From Pyrinomonadaceae bacterium (GTDB taxonomy: Bacteria > Acidobacteriota > Blastocatellia > Pyrinomonadales > Pyrinomonadaceae): a DNA stretch of 64,000 nt. Location: positions 1 to 64,000 of the forward strand of contig JAJQRF010000010.1 in the NCBI GenBank assembly GCA_021228405.1. The letters are read 5' to 3'. Under the pieces are notes generated by a model. That model made no database searches, was not told the DNA's origin, and worked only from the letters and a program-made list of their open reading frames with translations. This document shows positions 7,926 to 48,050 of the stretch, piece after piece (the first letter of the stretch is position 1; each line of letters starts with the position of its first letter). A program made the translations under genes and the position numbers.

Positions 7926-8017
7926 AGGGATAAGTGATAACGGATAGTTGATTGCGGATAGAGAAAAATACTATCACTTATCAACTATCCGTTATCAACT
8001 ATCCGTTATCACTTATC
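7926..8017. repeat. Heptamer-repeat palindrome (GATAACGGATAGTT type)
   Basis: The left arm (7927-7961) and right arm (7971-8016) share a 24-bp perfect inverted match, then diverge. Each arm is built of 7-bp words such as GATAACG, GATAGTT and GATAAGT. It starts 3 bp after the stop of the LON-domain gene and can form a long hairpin. Confidence 0.85.
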
Positions 8018-8287: not shown

Positions 8288-8986
8288 ATGCCGAGAATTA
8301 TTCCGCAAAGTAAATTTAAAAAGGTCGAGTTTTTGACCTTGTTCAAGACAAAGTTTCAGTCCGAAGGCGAGAGTTTGAGTTTTAGTTCGGATGAGATCGA
8401 AACCGCCGTGATTGCTTGTGAAACCATCATTTATTCCATAAAACTGGCAGATTTCGCAAAGGCATTTTCAAAGTCCTGCACCACTTTTAAGGAATCGAAA
8501 ACGAAAGGACTAATCAAAACCGAAACGGGCGGAACAATACCGACTTTTTCCGCGCCCGAACCGCCTGCCGTTATCTATAAAGGAAACGCGGTCGGCTATT
8601 TGCAGAAAATTTTCAAAAGAATAAAGGCACAGCCCGATTATTCGGAAGGTGTCGGGCTGAATCTGGGCATCATTCCGCCGAAATCCGCACCGCTTAACTT
8701 GCGCGAAGCCGCGCCGAAAGGATTGAAAATTCAATCGTTGTCGAACAGCGTTGTGCGGATAGACTGGCGCAAAGGAAAATTTGACGGCGTGATCGTAAAG
8801 TCGCAATTTTTGGGCGAAATCCAATGGTTTGAAATCGGACGCGATATTTACTCGCCGTTCATCGACACGCGTCCGCCGCGCGAAGCCGGAAAACCCGAAG
8901 TCCGCCGTTATCAGCTTTATTATATGCTCGACGATAAAGCCGTCGGCGAACCATCCGCGATTTTGGAAACGGCAACAAAACCTTAA
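8288..8986 (+). CDS. Unrecognised 232-residue protein behind a 21-bp repeat array
   Basis: I do not recognise this protein. It has no signal peptide and no membrane segment, so it is probably cytoplasmic. The N-terminal half (1-105) is helical and mixed. The C-terminal part (about 140-232) alternates strand-like segments (VVRIDWRKGKFDGVIVKSQ, RYQLYYMLDDKAVGEPS) in a way that resembles a fibronectin type III-like sandwich. Start at ATG 8288, with GGAG at 8274-8277. The 231 bp in front are a phased array of near-palindromes, which hints at unusual transcriptional control. It converges on the zinc-ribbon gene pair and is separated from it by a heptamer palindrome. Confidence 0.7.
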   Translation: MPRIIPQSKFKKVEFLTLFKTKFQSEGESLSFSSDEIETAVIACETIIYSIKLADFAKAFSKSCTTFKESKTKGLIKTETGGTIPTFSAPEPPAVIYKGNAVGYLQKIFKRIKAQPDYSEGVGLNLGIIPPKSAPLNLREAAPKGLKIQSLSNSVVRIDWRKGKFDGVIVKSQFLGEIQWFEIGRDIYSPFIDTRPPREAGKPEVRRYQLYYMLDDKAVGEPSAILETATKP

Positions 8987-9070
8987 TAGTGGATAGTGGA
9001 TAGTTGATAGTTGATAGTTGATAATTAATACAATCCACTATCCACTATCCACTATCCACTATCCACTATC
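8985..9070. repeat. Heptamer-repeat palindrome (GGATAGT type) between convergent genes
   Basis: The left arm has GGATAGT, GGATAGT, TGATAGT, TGATAGT, TGATAAT; the right arm has the complement, ATCCACT repeated five times, then a T-run (9071-9076). Loop about 6-8 nt. The right arm also encodes the last residues (DSG) and the TAG stop of the leftward zinc-ribbon gene. It probably ends transcription from both sides. Confidence 0.9.
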
Positions 9071-10894: not shown

Positions 10895-10998
10895 GATTCC
10901 AAATTCCGGATTCCGGATTCAGTTTGCCTAATTTGAAACCCGGAACTCGAAATCTGGAATCACTACCAATTTGGAGTTTGAAATCCGGAATCCGGAGT
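10895..10998. repeat. Heptamer-repeat palindrome (TTCCGGA type)
   Basis: The left arm carries TTCCGGA TTCCGGA TTCAGTTTG; the right arm, on the other strand, carries CTCCGGATTCCGGATTTCAAAC. Inner parts (GAAACCCGGAACTCGAAATC) are more decayed. It begins right after the stop of the leftward OB-fold gene. Confidence 0.8.
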
Positions 10999-11372
10999 TA
11001 TTTCCCGTTTCGCGTGCGCCGATCCTCTTCATACATTCCGAGTCCGTAGTTGCGACCGTTCCAGTTTACGCCGTTTTGAATTTTTCCTTTTACGCCGATC
11101 TGCGTTCCCTTGGTCGGGACGCTGTTTTGCGTGACGACCCAGATCGAACCCGTTCCGTCGCTGATCTTATATGCGCCGCCGCGAATGTTTGTCAACGGAA
11201 TGTTGATGCCGTAGGAATCCTGCACTGTGCCGGCAACCGCGATCGATTTATTCAAATACTTCGACGGATTTGCTTCGATGTCTGCAATGCTTTTTCTTTC
11301 CGGACAAGCCGCCGCAAATGCGACGACCGCAATCAATAATGTCAACAAAACCGCTTTTGTTCCGTTCTTCAT
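10998..11372 (-). CDS. Small OB-fold lipoprotein
   Basis: A 124-residue protein with an N-terminal hydrophobic signal and a possible lipoprotein cleavage site before Cys23 (AFAAAC; the -3 residue is Ala, so a weak lipobox). Residues 28-115 look like a small OB-fold of the tRNA_anti-like kind: IADIEANPSKYLNKSIAVAGTV, GGAYKISDGTGSIWVVT, GTQIGVKGKIQNG. Such proteins sit in the periplasm on the membrane; ligand unknown. It has its own promoter region (11373-11540), shared with the divergent gene at 11543. Confidence 0.75.
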   Translation of the reverse strand: MKNGTKAVLLTLLIAVVAFAAACPERKSIADIEANPSKYLNKSIAVAGTVQDSYGINIPLTNIRGGAYKISDGTGSIWVVTQNSVPTKGTQIGVKGKIQNGVNWNGRNYGLGMYEEDRRTRNGK

Positions 11373-13918: not shown

Positions 13919-14065
13919 AATTCCGGATTTTAGATTTCGGATTTTTAATCATAATTCCAATGATTTGAAATGAAATTCCAATTGTTTGCACTTATAATCG
14001 AGAAGATTCGATTTATCGAATCTGTTTTATTAATCCAAAATCCAAAATCTAAAATCCGAAATCTA
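13919..14065. repeat. Heptamer-repeat inverted pair (CAAAATC / GATTTTAG type), long loop
   Basis: The left arm 13919-13950 (ATTCCGGATTTTAGATTTCGG) and right arm 14031-14065 (built of CCAAAAT and CTAAAATCC words) are complementary around an 80-bp spacer that holds its own small palindrome, GATTCGATTTATCGAATC. The right arm ends 4 bp before the next start codon, leaving no room for a normal ribosome binding site. Confidence 0.8.
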
Positions 14066-15180: not shown

Positions 15181-15276
15181 GGATTCGAGATTCAAGATTC
15201 AAGATTTCAAATTTAAAGTCTAAAATCCGACTCTTAAATTTGGAATCTTGAATTTGAAATCTTGAATCTCGAATCC
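15181..15276. repeat. Heptamer-repeat palindrome (GATTCAA type) between convergent genes
   Basis: The left arm GGATTCGAGATTCAAGATT and the right arm's complement GGATTCGAGATTCAAGATT match base for base over the first 19 bases, then continue with TCAAATTT words. It lies between the stops of the zinc-ribbon gene and the thioredoxin gene and likely serves both as terminator. Confidence 0.9.
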
Positions 15277-18831: not shown

Positions 18832-18900
18832 GAGTGGATAACGGATAATGGATAGTTGATAATTACTTGCTATCAATATCCATTATCCGTTATCACCTAT
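18832..18900. repeat. Heptamer-repeat palindrome (GGATAAC / GGATAGT type) between convergent genes
   Basis: The left arm GGATAACGGATAATGGATAG and the right arm's complement GATAACGGATAATGGATA match closely around a short loop. It separates the stops of the DUF4139 gene and the NagX-like gene. Confidence 0.9.
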
Positions 18901-26085: not shown

Positions 26086-26114
26086 TAGTAGTTAGTAGTC
26101 AGTAGTCAGTATCC
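26086..26114. repeat. Single-armed heptamer run (TAGTCAG type)
   Basis: TAGTTAG TAGTCAG TAGTCAG lies between prs and rplY, inside the core operon. No complementary arm is visible within 100 bp, so it is a half element. Confidence 0.7.
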
Positions 26115-36170: not shown

Positions 36171-38813
36171 TTATTTTTCAGCCTGCGCCTTTAAAAATTC
36201 GTCCCGATATTCGTTGACGTATCCGATGTCTTTCGGCACCAGATCAGCCAGCGTCACGATGAGTTCGCCTTTGCGGGCATTTTTGATCGCGTGGCGAATC
36301 GCATCGCGGCTTTCGGGAATGATGCGGACTTGCGGTTTGTTTTCGCTTTGCGCGATTCCTTCCTGCAAAAGTTGGAACATTTCTTCGGGCGTTCGACCGC
36401 GCAGATAATTTCCCTGACGAATCACGATCCGGTCGAACGTATCGGCGGCGATTTTGCCGAATTCGCGGATGTCGTCGTCGCGGCGGTCGCCCGTGCCGTT
36501 GAGCACGACGCTTCGATGTTTATATGAAAGTTTCGAGATGAAATTCTTCAAGCCCGTCAAACCTGCCGGATTGTGCGCGTAATCCATCAAAACGGTTGCG
36601 TCACCGATCTCGACAAAGTTGAGCCGTCCCGGAGTTTGCGCGGTTCCCGCATTGAACGTCGTCAGCCCGACGCGAATATCCTCGAGCGAAACGCCGTGAA
36701 TGAAACAGGTCAGCGTCGCCGCCAAAACGTTCTGGATCATAAATTCAGCGCGTCCGCCGTAGGTCAGCGGAATGTTGACGACCTTTTCGACGCGGACTTT
36801 CCATTTTCCTTTTAAGATCGTCACGAACCCGTTTTCAAAAACGCACGAAACGCGGTTTCGACGCGCCTGACGTTCGATGTTCGGATGGTTTTCGTCCATC
36901 GAAAAATAGACAACCGAACCGTCAACAAGTTCCTTCATCCTGTAAACGTGTTCGTCTTCGGCATTCAAAACGGCAAAGCCTTTTTTGGAAACCGCACGCG
37001 GCACGACCGATTTCACCCGCGCCAAATCTTCCAGCGTGTTGACATCTTTCAAGCCGAGATGGTCGGCGGCGATGTTCGTCACCACGCCGATGTCGCAATA
37101 ATCAAAACCCAAACCCGAACGAATAATACCGCCCCGCGCCGTTTCCAGAACGGCAACTTCAACCGTCGGGTCTTTCAAAACGAGTTGTGCGGAAACGGGT
37201 CCCGTGTTGTCGCCCGAAACGATCTGCTGATTTTGAATATAAGTTCCGTCCGTCGTCGTAAATCCGACCGTTTTTCCGCTTCCCTTGATGATATGCGCGA
37301 TCAAACGCGTCGTCGTCGTTTTCCCGTTCGTTCCCGTCACCGAGATGATCGGAATCCGCGACGGCGCACCCGGCGGGAAAAGCATATCGACGACGTGTTC
37401 GGCGACGTTGCGCCCGATGCCTTCCGACGGCGCAAGGTGCATCCGGAAACCAGGCGCGGCGTTTACTTCGATGATTCCGCCGCCGCTTTCGTCCAATGGT
37501 TCGCTCACGTTGGTGGCGATAATATCGACTCCCGCGATGTCCAACCCGACGATGCGCGCAATTCTTTCAAAAAGAAAAACGTTTTTCGGGTGAACTTCGT
37601 CCGTCCGGTCGATTGCCGTTCCGCCCGTCGAGATATTCGCGGTCGTTTTCAAATAAAGGATTTCGTCCTTTTCCAAAACAGTTTCAAGCGTGTAGCCCCT
37701 CGCCTTTATCAATCTTTCGCTTTGCCCGTCGATGTCGATCTGCGTCAGAACGTTTTCGTGCCCGTAACCGCGCCGAGGGTCTTCGTTGATCTTATCGACA
37801 AGTTCTTGAATTGTCGATTTTCCGTCGCCGACAACGTGTGCGGGAATGCGTTCGGCAACTGCAATAAGACGATTATTCACGACCAATGCGCGAAAATCGT
37901 TTCCGATCAATTGTTTTTCGACAATTATCCAACGCGAATATTCCTTCGCCTTGTCAAACGCAACTTTCGCATCTTCGAGCGAGTTAATGCCGACCGTCGC
38001 GCCTTTGCCGTGATTTCCGTCGAGCGGTTTGATGACGAGCGGAAATCCGACGCGTTCGAGCGTGACTTCCAAATCTTCTTCATCGCGAATTCGGTAGCCT
38101 TTCGGAACGGGCACGCCCATTTCGCCGAGCAGTTTTTTCGTCGCGCTTTTGTCGCCCGCGATGTCAACCGAAATCATATTCGTGTTCGAGGTCGTCGTCG
38201 CCTGAATCCTGCGCTGGTGAACGCCGTAACCGAGCTGGACGAGCGATTGATCGTTCAAACGGATAAATGGAATATCGCGCGATTCGGCTTCTTCGACGAT
38301 CGAGCCGGTCGAGGGACCGAAACGCACATCTTCGCGAATCTCGCGCATTTCCTGAACGTCGTCCGCGATCAGCTTTTTGATCTCCTCGATCGATGTTCCT
38401 TCCGCCAGTGCCAGAAACAGACGAACGCCCGACCGCGCAGCGAAACGCCCGACTTCTTCTTCAAAATATGCAAAAACGACGTTGTAAATTCCCTTTTCGT
38501 TGGTTTCACGCGTTCTGCCGTAGCCGACATCCATTCCGGCAAGCGTTTGCAGTTCGAGCGCGAAATGTTCGATCGCGTGACCTGCCCACGTTCCTTCTTC
38601 GACGCGTTTCAGAAAACCGCCTTCTTCCTGATAACTGCATCCGTGCGTGACGATGCTCGGCATCACTTCGCGCAATCTGTCCGTAAAACCCTCGATCTTA
38701 TTGGTCGGTTTATCCTCATATTCGCCAATGTCGAGGCGCATCACGATCAATTTCTTCCAATAACCGCTCCAATAGTTTGGTCCGCGTAACGTTCTGATCT
38801 CTTGAATTTTCAT
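36171..38813 (-). CDS. cphA: Cyanophycin synthetase
   Basis: An 880-residue enzyme, the usual CphA1 length. It builds multi-L-arginyl-poly-L-aspartate from Asp and Arg with ATP. Three parts are visible: an N-terminal domain (1-160, LRGPNYWSGYWKKLIVMRLD at the start and HAIEHFALELQTLAG), an ATP-grasp domain (about 210-480, PLDGNHGKGATVGI and VNAAPGFRMHLAPS), and a Mur-ligase-like domain with the P-loop VTGTNGKTTTTRLIAHI (about 490-510) and YAHNPAGL. It is a storage system for nitrogen in the cytoplasm. The cyanophycinase gene lies upstream on the same strand, split off by a decayed insertion. Confidence 0.97.
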   Translation of the reverse strand: MKIQEIRTLRGPNYWSGYWKKLIVMRLDIGEYEDKPTNKIEGFTDRLREVMPSIVTHGCSYQEEGGFLKRVEEGTWAGHAIEHFALELQTLAGMDVGYGRTRETNEKGIYNVVFAYFEEEVGRFAARSGVRLFLALAEGTSIEEIKKLIADDVQEMREIREDVRFGPSTGSIVEEAESRDIPFIRLNDQSLVQLGYGVHQRRIQATTTSNTNMISVDIAGDKSATKKLLGEMGVPVPKGYRIRDEEDLEVTLERVGFPLVIKPLDGNHGKGATVGINSLEDAKVAFDKAKEYSRWIIVEKQLIGNDFRALVVNNRLIAVAERIPAHVVGDGKSTIQELVDKINEDPRRGYGHENVLTQIDIDGQSERLIKARGYTLETVLEKDEILYLKTTANISTGGTAIDRTDEVHPKNVFLFERIARIVGLDIAGVDIIATNVSEPLDESGGGIIEVNAAPGFRMHLAPSEGIGRNVAEHVVDMLFPPGAPSRIPIISVTGTNGKTTTTRLIAHIIKGSGKTVGFTTTDGTYIQNQQIVSGDNTGPVSAQLVLKDPTVEVAVLETARGGIIRSGLGFDYCDIGVVTNIAADHLGLKDVNTLEDLARVKSVVPRAVSKKGFAVLNAEDEHVYRMKELVDGSVVYFSMDENHPNIERQARRNRVSCVFENGFVTILKGKWKVRVEKVVNIPLTYGGRAEFMIQNVLAATLTCFIHGVSLEDIRVGLTTFNAGTAQTPGRLNFVEIGDATVLMDYAHNPAGLTGLKNFISKLSYKHRSVVLNGTGDRRDDDIREFGKIAADTFDRIVIRQGNYLRGRTPEEMFQLLQEGIAQSENKPQVRIIPESRDAIRHAIKNARKGELIVTLADLVPKDIGYVNEYRDEFLKAQAEK

Positions 38814-38821
38814 AAGTTATT

Positions 38822-39260
38822 TGCGATTTTCGATTTGCAATTTGCAATTTAACCGTTGTTTTTTGCTAAATTTTCGATGCCGCCATAATTTTCGTAATTT
38901 CGACGGCTTCTTGCAATTTATTCTCAACTAAATTTCTCTTTAATAATTCACTTTCTATAATTAATTCCATCCAGAATGCGCTTTCGTCTGCTTCTTCCGC
39001 GACGATTCCGGGTTTGGCAATAAATTCCGCCTTTGAACGTTCCCGGCAAGCCGCCCGATAATTCGCAGTAACCGATCTGTCCCCGAACGAATTAATTGAT
39101 CCCCGATTTTTCGACCTGCAATGATAATTGGTAAAGCATTTACCAATTCGATAATTCTCAAAGCAAAATTTTTAGTTCCCTGTAAAAGTTCATTTTCAGT
39201 TATAAACTTAATTCCCCAAACTAAAGACAATCGCAAATTGCAAATCGAAAATCGAAAATG
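38822..39260. mobile_element. Heptamer-repeat arms flanking a decayed S23 gene
   Basis: The left arm (38822-38851, GATTTTCGATTTGCAATTTG) and right arm (39230-39260) are inverted copies of each other, made of TTTGCAA and TTTCGAT words. Between them lies only the broken four-helix-bundle gene. The unit of about 440 bp sits between cphB and cphA. This looks like a gene-bearing member of the same repeat class that elsewhere forms short palindromes. Confidence 0.6.
38866..39203 (-). pseudogene. Four-helix-bundle (S23/IVS-type) protein gene, frameshifted
   Basis: The reading frame begins TENELLQGTKNFALRIIEL, then GRKIGDQLIRSGT, and breaks there. Removing two extra bases at 39076-39077 restores SVTANYRAACRERSKAEF, then GIVAEEADESAFWMELI and a normal ending at the stop 38866-38868. 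This is the hallmark of the four helix bundle family also found in 23S rRNA intervening sequences. The expected start codon before TENEL is ATA, not ATG. So both start and frame are damaged. It is flanked by inverted heptamer repeats. Confidence 0.85.
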
Positions 39261-39261
39261 T

Positions 39262-40116
39262 CTATTCTATATCGGGTAACAAAAACTCATTCGGCGGCTG
39301 GAGCGGGTGGCGACCGAAATAATCGTAGATTAAGCCGTCGCCCAGAATGTGTAACTGCACGCCGCACACGCTGAACGCTTCGTTATCCGAAACTTCAGCT
39401 ATTTCATTGAAGGTTATCTGCGAACCGTCAACGATAGTGACCGAACCTGCGCCGAAAACTTCCAGAATCCCTTCATTATCCAAAATGATCGCCGTATTTT
39501 CGTCGATCCCGACTCCGAGATTATACGGATTATATGAAACCGCCGTGATAAGACGCGAAATTCGTCCGCGCTCGGTAAAATGTTGGTCGATGATGATATT
39601 TTTCAAAAATCCGAGTCCGGGCGAAAGCCTGACCGAATTTTTGTGCGGGTGCGAGCTGGCTTCGCCGCGCACGATCATCGAAGCCGACATTCCCGCCGCG
39701 CCCGCGCTCGTTCCGGCTAAAACGACATTTGTTTCCGTGACCATTTTGCGCAGGATTTGCGAAAATTTCGTGCCGCCCAGGATCGAAACGAGCCGCATCT
39801 GGTCGCCGCCCGAAATGAAAACGCCCGTTACGCCGTCGAGCAATGCCTCGGCATCGGATTGGAAAACATCCTGCCGTGAAGTTGCGCGGAGGACGCGCGG
39901 ATTTGCCACCCCCAGTTTGCGAAACGCCTGAACGTAAACGTCCGCCGCAAATTCGGGAAAGTCCGAGGCGACGGGCACGATCAGGATTTCGGCGTTTTCG
40001 CCGCCCGCAAGCTGGATGAATTTCTTTAAAATCCGGCGTTCGTTGTATTTATCTTCCGCGCCGCCGATTATCATTAAGTGACCGCCGATAATCTCGCGGT
40101 GAATTCTTTCTGTCAT
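39262..40116 (-). CDS. cphB: Cyanophycinase
   Basis: A 284-residue serine peptidase (S51-related) that cuts cyanophycin into beta-Asp-Arg dipeptides. GGHLMIIGGAEDK starts the fold; the nucleophile is S137 in AGTSAGAAGMS, matching the family position; GGDQMRLVSILGGT and LGVGIDENTAII follow. Start at ATG 40116 (MTERIHREIIGG); 13 further codons upstream look like non-conserved leader. Together with cphA and the isoaspartyl peptidase it gives a full synthesis and breakdown route. Confidence 0.95.
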   Translation of the reverse strand: MTERIHREIIGGHLMIIGGAEDKYNERRILKKFIQLAGGENAEILIVPVASDFPEFAADVYVQAFRKLGVANPRVLRATSRQDVFQSDAEALLDGVTGVFISGGDQMRLVSILGGTKFSQILRKMVTETNVVLAGTSAGAAGMSASMIVRGEASSHPHKNSVRLSPGLGFLKNIIIDQHFTERGRISRLITAVSYNPYNLGVGIDENTAIILDNEGILEVFGAGSVTIVDGSQITFNEIAEVSDNEAFSVCGVQLHILGDGLIYDYFGRHPLQPPNEFLLPDIE

Positions 40117-40278
40117 TTTGGTTTTTAAGTTATTGCAAAAGCGGAAATTGGTCAAGAAAAAAATATTCCGACAATTTTGTTGAATTGCATTAATTTTCGG
40201 CTTATCATCAAGCCGTTAAATATTTTCGGTAAAAGCTAAGTGTAAGAATACATAACAGAACTAAATTTTTCCAAATCT

Positions 40279-47666: not shown

Positions 47667-48050
47667 AATTTCCCTTTTTCTCCCCTAATTGAATATTATT
47701 CCTGAAGGATTTTCAAAGATTATACCCGGAACAGCGGATAACCGATAGTGAATAACGAAAAGCGGATAACCGATAGTGAATATGACGGAAAATCATATCG
47801 GAGTAAACGGTTCAAGTGGTTTACGAAAACGATTACGCCTAAATTCCGGTATTCTCACCCCTCGCCAACGGAAGATTTGCTATAATCTTATGAAATAAAT
47901 TATAGGTTTATTTTAATTCAAGATTGAAGTTTGATCGATATTTTTTCGCAAAGCGGGCAGAATACGGAACTGATTTATAATTATTGGAAATAATGGAATT
48001 TTGGTTATTTTATGCAATACGGGCAGGAAGCTGTCAGCGGGGTTTAGAAT
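47667..48050. other. 384-bp intergenic region between divergent genes
   Basis: Besides the direct repeat at 47733-47782 no gene, RNA or terminator is seen. Promoters of the leftward M1 peptidase and the rightward methyltransferase must be here. Confidence 0.5.
47733..47782. repeat. Direct repeat of 22 bp, period 28
   Basis: AGCGGATAACCGATAGTG plus AATA occurs at 47733 and again at 47761. The period is four times seven, and the words (GGATAAC, GATAGTG) belong to the heptamer family, but here the copies are direct and have no inverted arm. Confidence 0.8.

Follow-up and report, generated by a model that had tools for sequence, protein, structure and literature searches.

A decayed S23 gene between inverted heptamer arms at a cphB-cphA junction is probably a copy of a small mobile element

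Several described systems resemble the element considered here. The intervening sequences (IVSs) in 23S rRNA of Leptospira and Coxiella carry a gene of the same protein family and size, S23, with complementary borders that form a stem around the ORF. IVSs have been named parasitic or selfish and their ORF is often decaying, and S23 proteins have a solved structure and no known function (PMC4990558). The IVSs described so far occupy rRNA helix 9, 25 or 45, and RNase III removes them from pre-rRNA. In RAYT (TnpA-REP)/REPIN systems, inverted repeats around a gene match many dispersed short palindromes, and protein and repeat covary. The Avd protein of diversity-generating retroelements (DGRs) belongs to the same fold family as S23 and is a pentameric four-helix bundle. 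Finally, dispersed heptamers and STRR consist of 7-bp tandem words in intergenic DNA, often as inverted pairs. Examples are TAACTGA in Beggiatoaceae, cyanobacteria and Bacteroidetes (PMC4679880), the GGGAATC of Xanthomonas and the GGGGATT of Nostoc (PMC4692102). A word like the AGTTATC of locus L117 reads as TAACTGA on the opposite strand. Across very diverse prokaryotes, tandem heptamers are reported to be the short periodic repeat that is most abundant in intergenic DNA, and nothing clearly points to a function for them (PMC6344855). The study of GGGAATC and GGGGATT saw no link to mobile elements (PMC4692102). Unlike the units described below, dispersed heptamers have been presented without a link to S23 or to mobility. 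Our search found no open-access paper joining S23 and heptamers; subscription papers and preprints lay outside it.

The window (the whole 64,000-nt stretch of DNA analysed, from a Pyrinomonadaceae genome of 5.7 Mb) contains a feature (Table 1) that is probably a small mobile element in decayed form; we call such an element an S23 unit. As an earlier sequence-only reading had proposed, two inverted arms of heptamer words bracket an S23 gene and nothing else. The arms are 31 nt long (38819-38849 versus 39229-39259), 94% complementary and separated by 379 nt; each is a period-7 array of ~7-bp words. Across 400 kb of the same genome, 15 heptamer inverted pairs were found in the real sequence and 0 after local shuffling. 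The gene is split over two frames. Its C-terminal part matches PF05635 (E 3e-6) and TIGR02436 (E 6e-11), and its N-terminal part matches TIGR02436 (E 0.003). For the C-terminal part, the TIGR02436 score of 42.6 bits is over the curated cut-off of 24 and the PF05635 score of 27.8 bits is under the cut-off of 33.8, the gene being broken; intact S23 units score 65-141 bits in the profile search. The bAvd and DivGenRetAVD profiles match the window gene weakly. The proposed decay was likewise borne out: ATA stands at the start position, and the two frames join near 39076, where the window reads 'IRSGTD|RSVTANYRAACR' and the intact paralogue L009 reads 'LLRSGTSVGANYRASCR'. The unit does separate cphB from cphA, the cyanophycinase and cyanophycin synthetase genes that flank it in the same direction. 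A second decayed, frameshifted S23 unit, with the protein type of the window and arms of ATTGCGG, lies at L070:8178-8750 in another genome (G037). Other long-gap heptamer pairs without S23 were considered as further units and rejected, being adjacent same-word palindromes or arrays beside ordinary genes.

Table 1 Coordinates of features in the window
Feature	Position	Strand	Description
Arm adjoining cphA	38819..38850	.	~4.5 heptamers, ATTTGCG/ATTTTCG/ATTTGCA reading inward
Arm adjoining cphB	39229..39259	.	cphA-side array inverted, 94% complementary
Decayed S23/IVP gene	38866..39203	-	stop TAG 38866-38868; start position 39201-39203 is ATA; frameshift near 39076
Whole S23 unit	38819..39259	-	in cphB-cphA junction, co-directional with both genes
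cphB (cyanophycinase)	39262..40155	-	stop codon 39262-39264, 2 bp beyond S23 unit
cphA (cyanophycin synthetase)	36171..38813	-	start ATG 38811-38813, 5 bp beyond S23 unit
Closed heptamer palindrome without S23	7929..8017	.	loop 23 nt
Closed heptamer palindrome	8986..9069	.	loop 10 nt; word GATAGTT, as in S23 unit L004 of the source genome
Closed heptamer palindrome	10902..10999	.	loop 62 nt
Closed heptamer palindrome	13920..14062	.	loop 91 nt
Closed heptamer palindrome	15189..15275	.	loop 31 nt
Closed heptamer palindrome	18837..18894	.	loop 22 nt

Set beside the described systems, the window unit shares with IVSs an S23 ORF with complementary borders and, as regards excision by RNase III, shows a predicted stem: in the predicted transcript the arms form the closing stem (z -4.3). 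It lies, however, between two protein-coding genes and not in rRNA, and no Rfam match was found at the locus. Unlike IVSs, S23 units sit in protein-coding operons and have arms of many tandem words, cognate palindromes and target duplications. They differ from RAYTs and REPINs in having no Y1/HuH domain, no fixed palindrome core and arrays of clade-specific words; there is no Y1 gene in the unit, and 20 Y1 loci were nearly devoid of heptamer palindromes. In contrast to DGRs, the units contain no reverse transcriptase (RT), TR or VR, and an RT is absent from the source genome.

The association between S23 genes and arms extends well beyond the window. The source genome has 11 distinct PF05635 genes, all 11 surrounded by inverted word arrays, and each gene has its own arm word (AATTACG, GATAGTT, GATCTTC, AATTAAA, GATTTGG, AAAGTCC, AGTGGTC and others). 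S23 was present in 50 of 60 genomes of relatives, with arms on about 73 of 79 units; the period was mostly 7 and sometimes 8, 9 or 10, and the words, read inward, had a common polarity with a consensus near AGTNGTC. A further set of 80 named loci covered over a dozen phyla (Bacteroidota, Patescibacteria, Planctomycetota, Clostridia, Pseudomonadota, Desulfobacterota and others). Inverted flanks at a score of at least 15 were present at 66 of these loci, compared to 4% for a null of mismatched flanks; 50 of the 66 were clearly periodic (35 at 7, 14 at 8 and one at 9). The expectation that arms would be commoner at S23 genes than at other small genes received strong support, with arms at 23 of 40 S23 genes versus 2 of 273 other small ORFs under a stricter arm test.

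Four S23 genes had no arms (L077, L080, L081 and L108:5734), which counts against the explanation by S23 units. Two of the four belong to a subfamily that is divergent, has an extended C-terminus and is possibly domesticated. XCC0516 (PDB 2GSC), an S23 gene of Xanthomonas campestris, was sought for GGGAATC arms; neither 369 gammaproteobacterial genomes nor the family that gave the best hit contained a close copy, and a limited query of phage records did not find S23. A GIY-YIG gene was rejected as a second passenger: its single match in the source genome sits in a 611-aa frame and is therefore probably UvrC.

The arm-gene-arm unit moves as a single block whose limits are the arms. Two copies in the same genome, L072 and L074, share 95% identity across a 447-bp stretch that coincides exactly with the arm-to-arm unit, and their flanks are unrelated; the same is true of L107 and L111, at 83% identity. 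Plasmid C of Trichormus variabilis has a 428-bp insertion with GTAAT repeated at both sides; Aulosira, Tolypothrix and other plasmids whose flanks are 97% identical lack it. On pNsp_a of Nostoc ATCC 53789, a unit lies between copies of TTCTA, which the paralogous empty site of pNsp_c has once; pNsp_c has its own unit at a junction that is empty elsewhere, within an overlapping TAATG stop-start. The target duplication is GTAAT in the filled/empty pair L278 versus L282/L286 and TTCTA in L289 versus L294, and further filled/empty plasmid pairs were L294 versus L295, L276 versus L301/L302, L291 versus L299/L300 and L288 versus L298. Because the empty sites carry no arms, the arms must arrive together with the unit. 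Occurrence at unrelated sites and filled/empty pairs with a target duplication are both features of transposable elements in general, and S23 units show both. The duplication was 5 bp and exact in two pairs and partial in a third. In the four pairs other than the two exact ones, the spacer was replaced or diverged, or held a repeat of 3 bp at most, and a global search by arm ends, where unit boundaries are fuzzy, gave no significant excess of flanking repeats; both results count against the explanation by S23 units.

S23 units insert at the stop codon of the upstream gene between co-directional operon genes, and most of the plasmid units lie between co-directional genes. Some of these junctions belong to CRISPR operons. 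In Picosynechococcus PCC 7003 (L288), a unit separates Cas10/cmr2 from cmr3 (III-B) and none is present there in PCC 7002, and in Anabaena sp. 90 pANA02 (L279) and Pseudanabaena galeata (L292) units separate cas6 from cas4 in type I-D operons. S23/IVP figures in lists of CRISPR-associated genes (PMC10910872), which may be explained by mobile insertion and not by partnership with Cas proteins.

Arm words follow the protein. Covariation was assessed on 6,856 pairs without homologous flanks, with arms permuted 2,000 times. Pairs with at least 65% protein identity had arm words in common in 37.6% of cases, compared to 4.1% after permutation (permutation maximum 12.0%), and sharing rose from 1-4% under 60% identity to 50-60% over 70%. 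Neutral arms that share descent with S23, and are not bound by it, could also give such covariation. The protein itself is under purifying selection between copies, with dN/dS between mobile copies of 0.02 (11 synonymous changes and 1 replacement) and 0.10-0.14. The median arm is 35 nt, or five words. Five chains are likewise present in each of the solved relatives, 2GSC and 2RLD, and 2GSC is described as a pentameric toroid (PMC4990558). An average of five words per arm thus matches the S23 pentamer and suggests one protomer per word.

The best reading of these results, and one we regard as probable, is a mobile element without a transposase, in which the S23 pentamer recognises the arms of its own unit. 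Each unit has a left array of some five words, mostly of 7 bp and in some cases of 8 or 9 bp, followed by a single S23/IVP four-helix-bundle gene and by that array inverted. The pentamer would bind its own arms with about one protomer on each word and, once bound, would direct copying or integration by a nuclease or polymerase that belongs to the host or has yet to be recognised. In the mRNA, the arm stem is probably cut by RNase III, by analogy with rRNA IVSs, and the operon would be spared as a result. Short palindromes of the same word would be trans products or by-products of the S23 process, not collapsed units. We know of no catalytic domain in S23, which counts against this explanation, and no catalytic partner was identified among the RT and Y1 candidates.

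The units might instead be MITE-like passengers mobilised in trans by another transposase or RT, with S23 as cargo. S23 is not a known enzyme, target duplications imply staggered cutting, and the number of S23 copies correlates with that of Y1 transposases in 60 genomes (rho 0.72). Moreover, Avd, a relative of S23, works with an RT (PMC10053308). Against this, an RT is missing from 13 of the 26 genomes with at least five S23 copies, including the source genome, and Y1 is absent from two genomes whose S23 copies number 6 and 7; neither enzyme is required for S23 units. Y1 genes lack heptamer arms, the end sequences vary among units to a degree that a transposase with fixed TIRs would not tolerate, and cargo status sits poorly with the purifying selection on S23. 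On balance, we consider trans-mobilised passengers unlikely. As a separate observation, Y1 (REP-associated) transposase number tracks S23 number in G000 and 60 relatives without physical linkage.

Heptamer arms also occur closed over short loops without S23. About ten such palindromes had been reported in the window; six exist (Table 1), and five other arrays, at 26087, 27121, 32777, 34867 and 47729, are unpaired. The last of these (47729-47782) is an isolated 28-bp tandem repeat (GAAAAGCGGATAACCGATAGTGAATAAC) with heptamer-like words. In sampled stretches of genomes, many S23 carriers had a palindrome density of 3-16 per 100 kb, two more had 1.2 and 1.4, and G040 had none; 9 of 10 sampled S23-less genomes had no palindromes. 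The words of palindromes matched S23 words of their own genome at 0.656 versus 0.533 +/- 0.030 (0 of 2,000 shuffles), with base composition as a possible confounder. A dose relation with S23 copies was rejected, as G001, the tenth of the S23-less genomes (88% complete; L215-L218), has 14.7 palindromes per 100 kb and no S23 gene found, and G040 has one S23 gene and no palindromes; this absence of scaling counts against the explanation by S23 units.

The sequence-only reading suggested that the palindromes could be emptied S23 units, on our understanding by internal deletion. Its view of arms plus S23 as the complete element stands, as does the sharing of words within a genome; the scarcity of palindromes in S23-less genomes and a half-deleted unit, L285, which keeps one arm and part of the gene and is the only partly deleted unit seen, also favour emptied units. 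The part concerning relics is otherwise not supported. Loops are unrelated to one another, even under identical arms, and no S23 sequence was found in them (one high-scoring match proved to be arm sequence). The gaps between paired arms are bimodal, with 81 pairs under 150 nt, 4 at 150-350 nt and 30 at 350-550 nt, leaving almost no intermediates, and the palindromes have no core or termini in common with an autonomous element, as those of MITEs or collapsed transposons do. The empty palindrome predicted at matching S23-less sites also failed to appear: between the sister species G009 and G033, orthologous sites without the unit held no palindrome of the same word, and at one site the first of the two species to be compared carried an S23 unit with the word AGTGATG, the second a palindrome without S23 and with a different word, AGCAAAC. 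Emptied units are therefore quite improbable. With unrelated, S23-free loops and no same-word palindrome at S23-less sites, the palindromes look like separate insertions from the S23 system. Two S23-less orthologous junctions of G033 (L125 and L122) carry non-heptamer palindromes, of the CCGCGGATTACACAGAT type and the GCGGAAAGGC type, which suggests that these operon junctions are general insertion hot spots.

The reverse order of events, in which S23 genes are guests inserted into the loops of pre-existing heptamer palindromes like IVSs at the tips of rRNA helices, is very unlikely and already largely refuted. IVSs do replace rRNA tetraloops (PMC4990558), and palindromes far outnumber S23 genes with the same words and polarity, but gene and arms arrive together at plasmid sites that had no arms, copies at unrelated sites have the same arms, and arm words track the protein clade and not the site. 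Earlier work, of which PMC4679880 gives a summary, put forward slippage as an origin of heptamers, and array copy numbers that differ among orthologues are consistent with it. Neutral polymerase slippage, with S23 genes merely tolerating the arrays, is hardly credible and already refuted as the sole cause, since it fails to predict inverted pairing at one gene family, fixed polarity, covariation of word and clade, or insertion of whole units.

The transposase-less S23 unit is apparently an undescribed and widespread kind of mobile DNA, and it may explain much of the so far unexplained heptamer-repeat DNA scattered across bacterial genomes. More tentatively, and with somewhat less than an even chance of being right, S23/IVP genes could be central to mobile elements of a new class that encodes no known recombinase. 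In it, a ring-shaped four-helix-bundle protein would recognise a tandem word array, each protomer reading roughly one word, and would copy or insert whole units as well as bare arm pairs; the class would be the source of much of the unexplained heptamer DNA in bacteria, with rRNA IVSs as one specialised branch. The link between S23 and heptamers makes two puzzles directly testable, through binding of S23 to its own word and S23-dependent movement. If true, it would mean that a mobile element can lack a recognised transposase, have ends that vary and match its protein, and enter operon junctions, including those of CRISPR operons.
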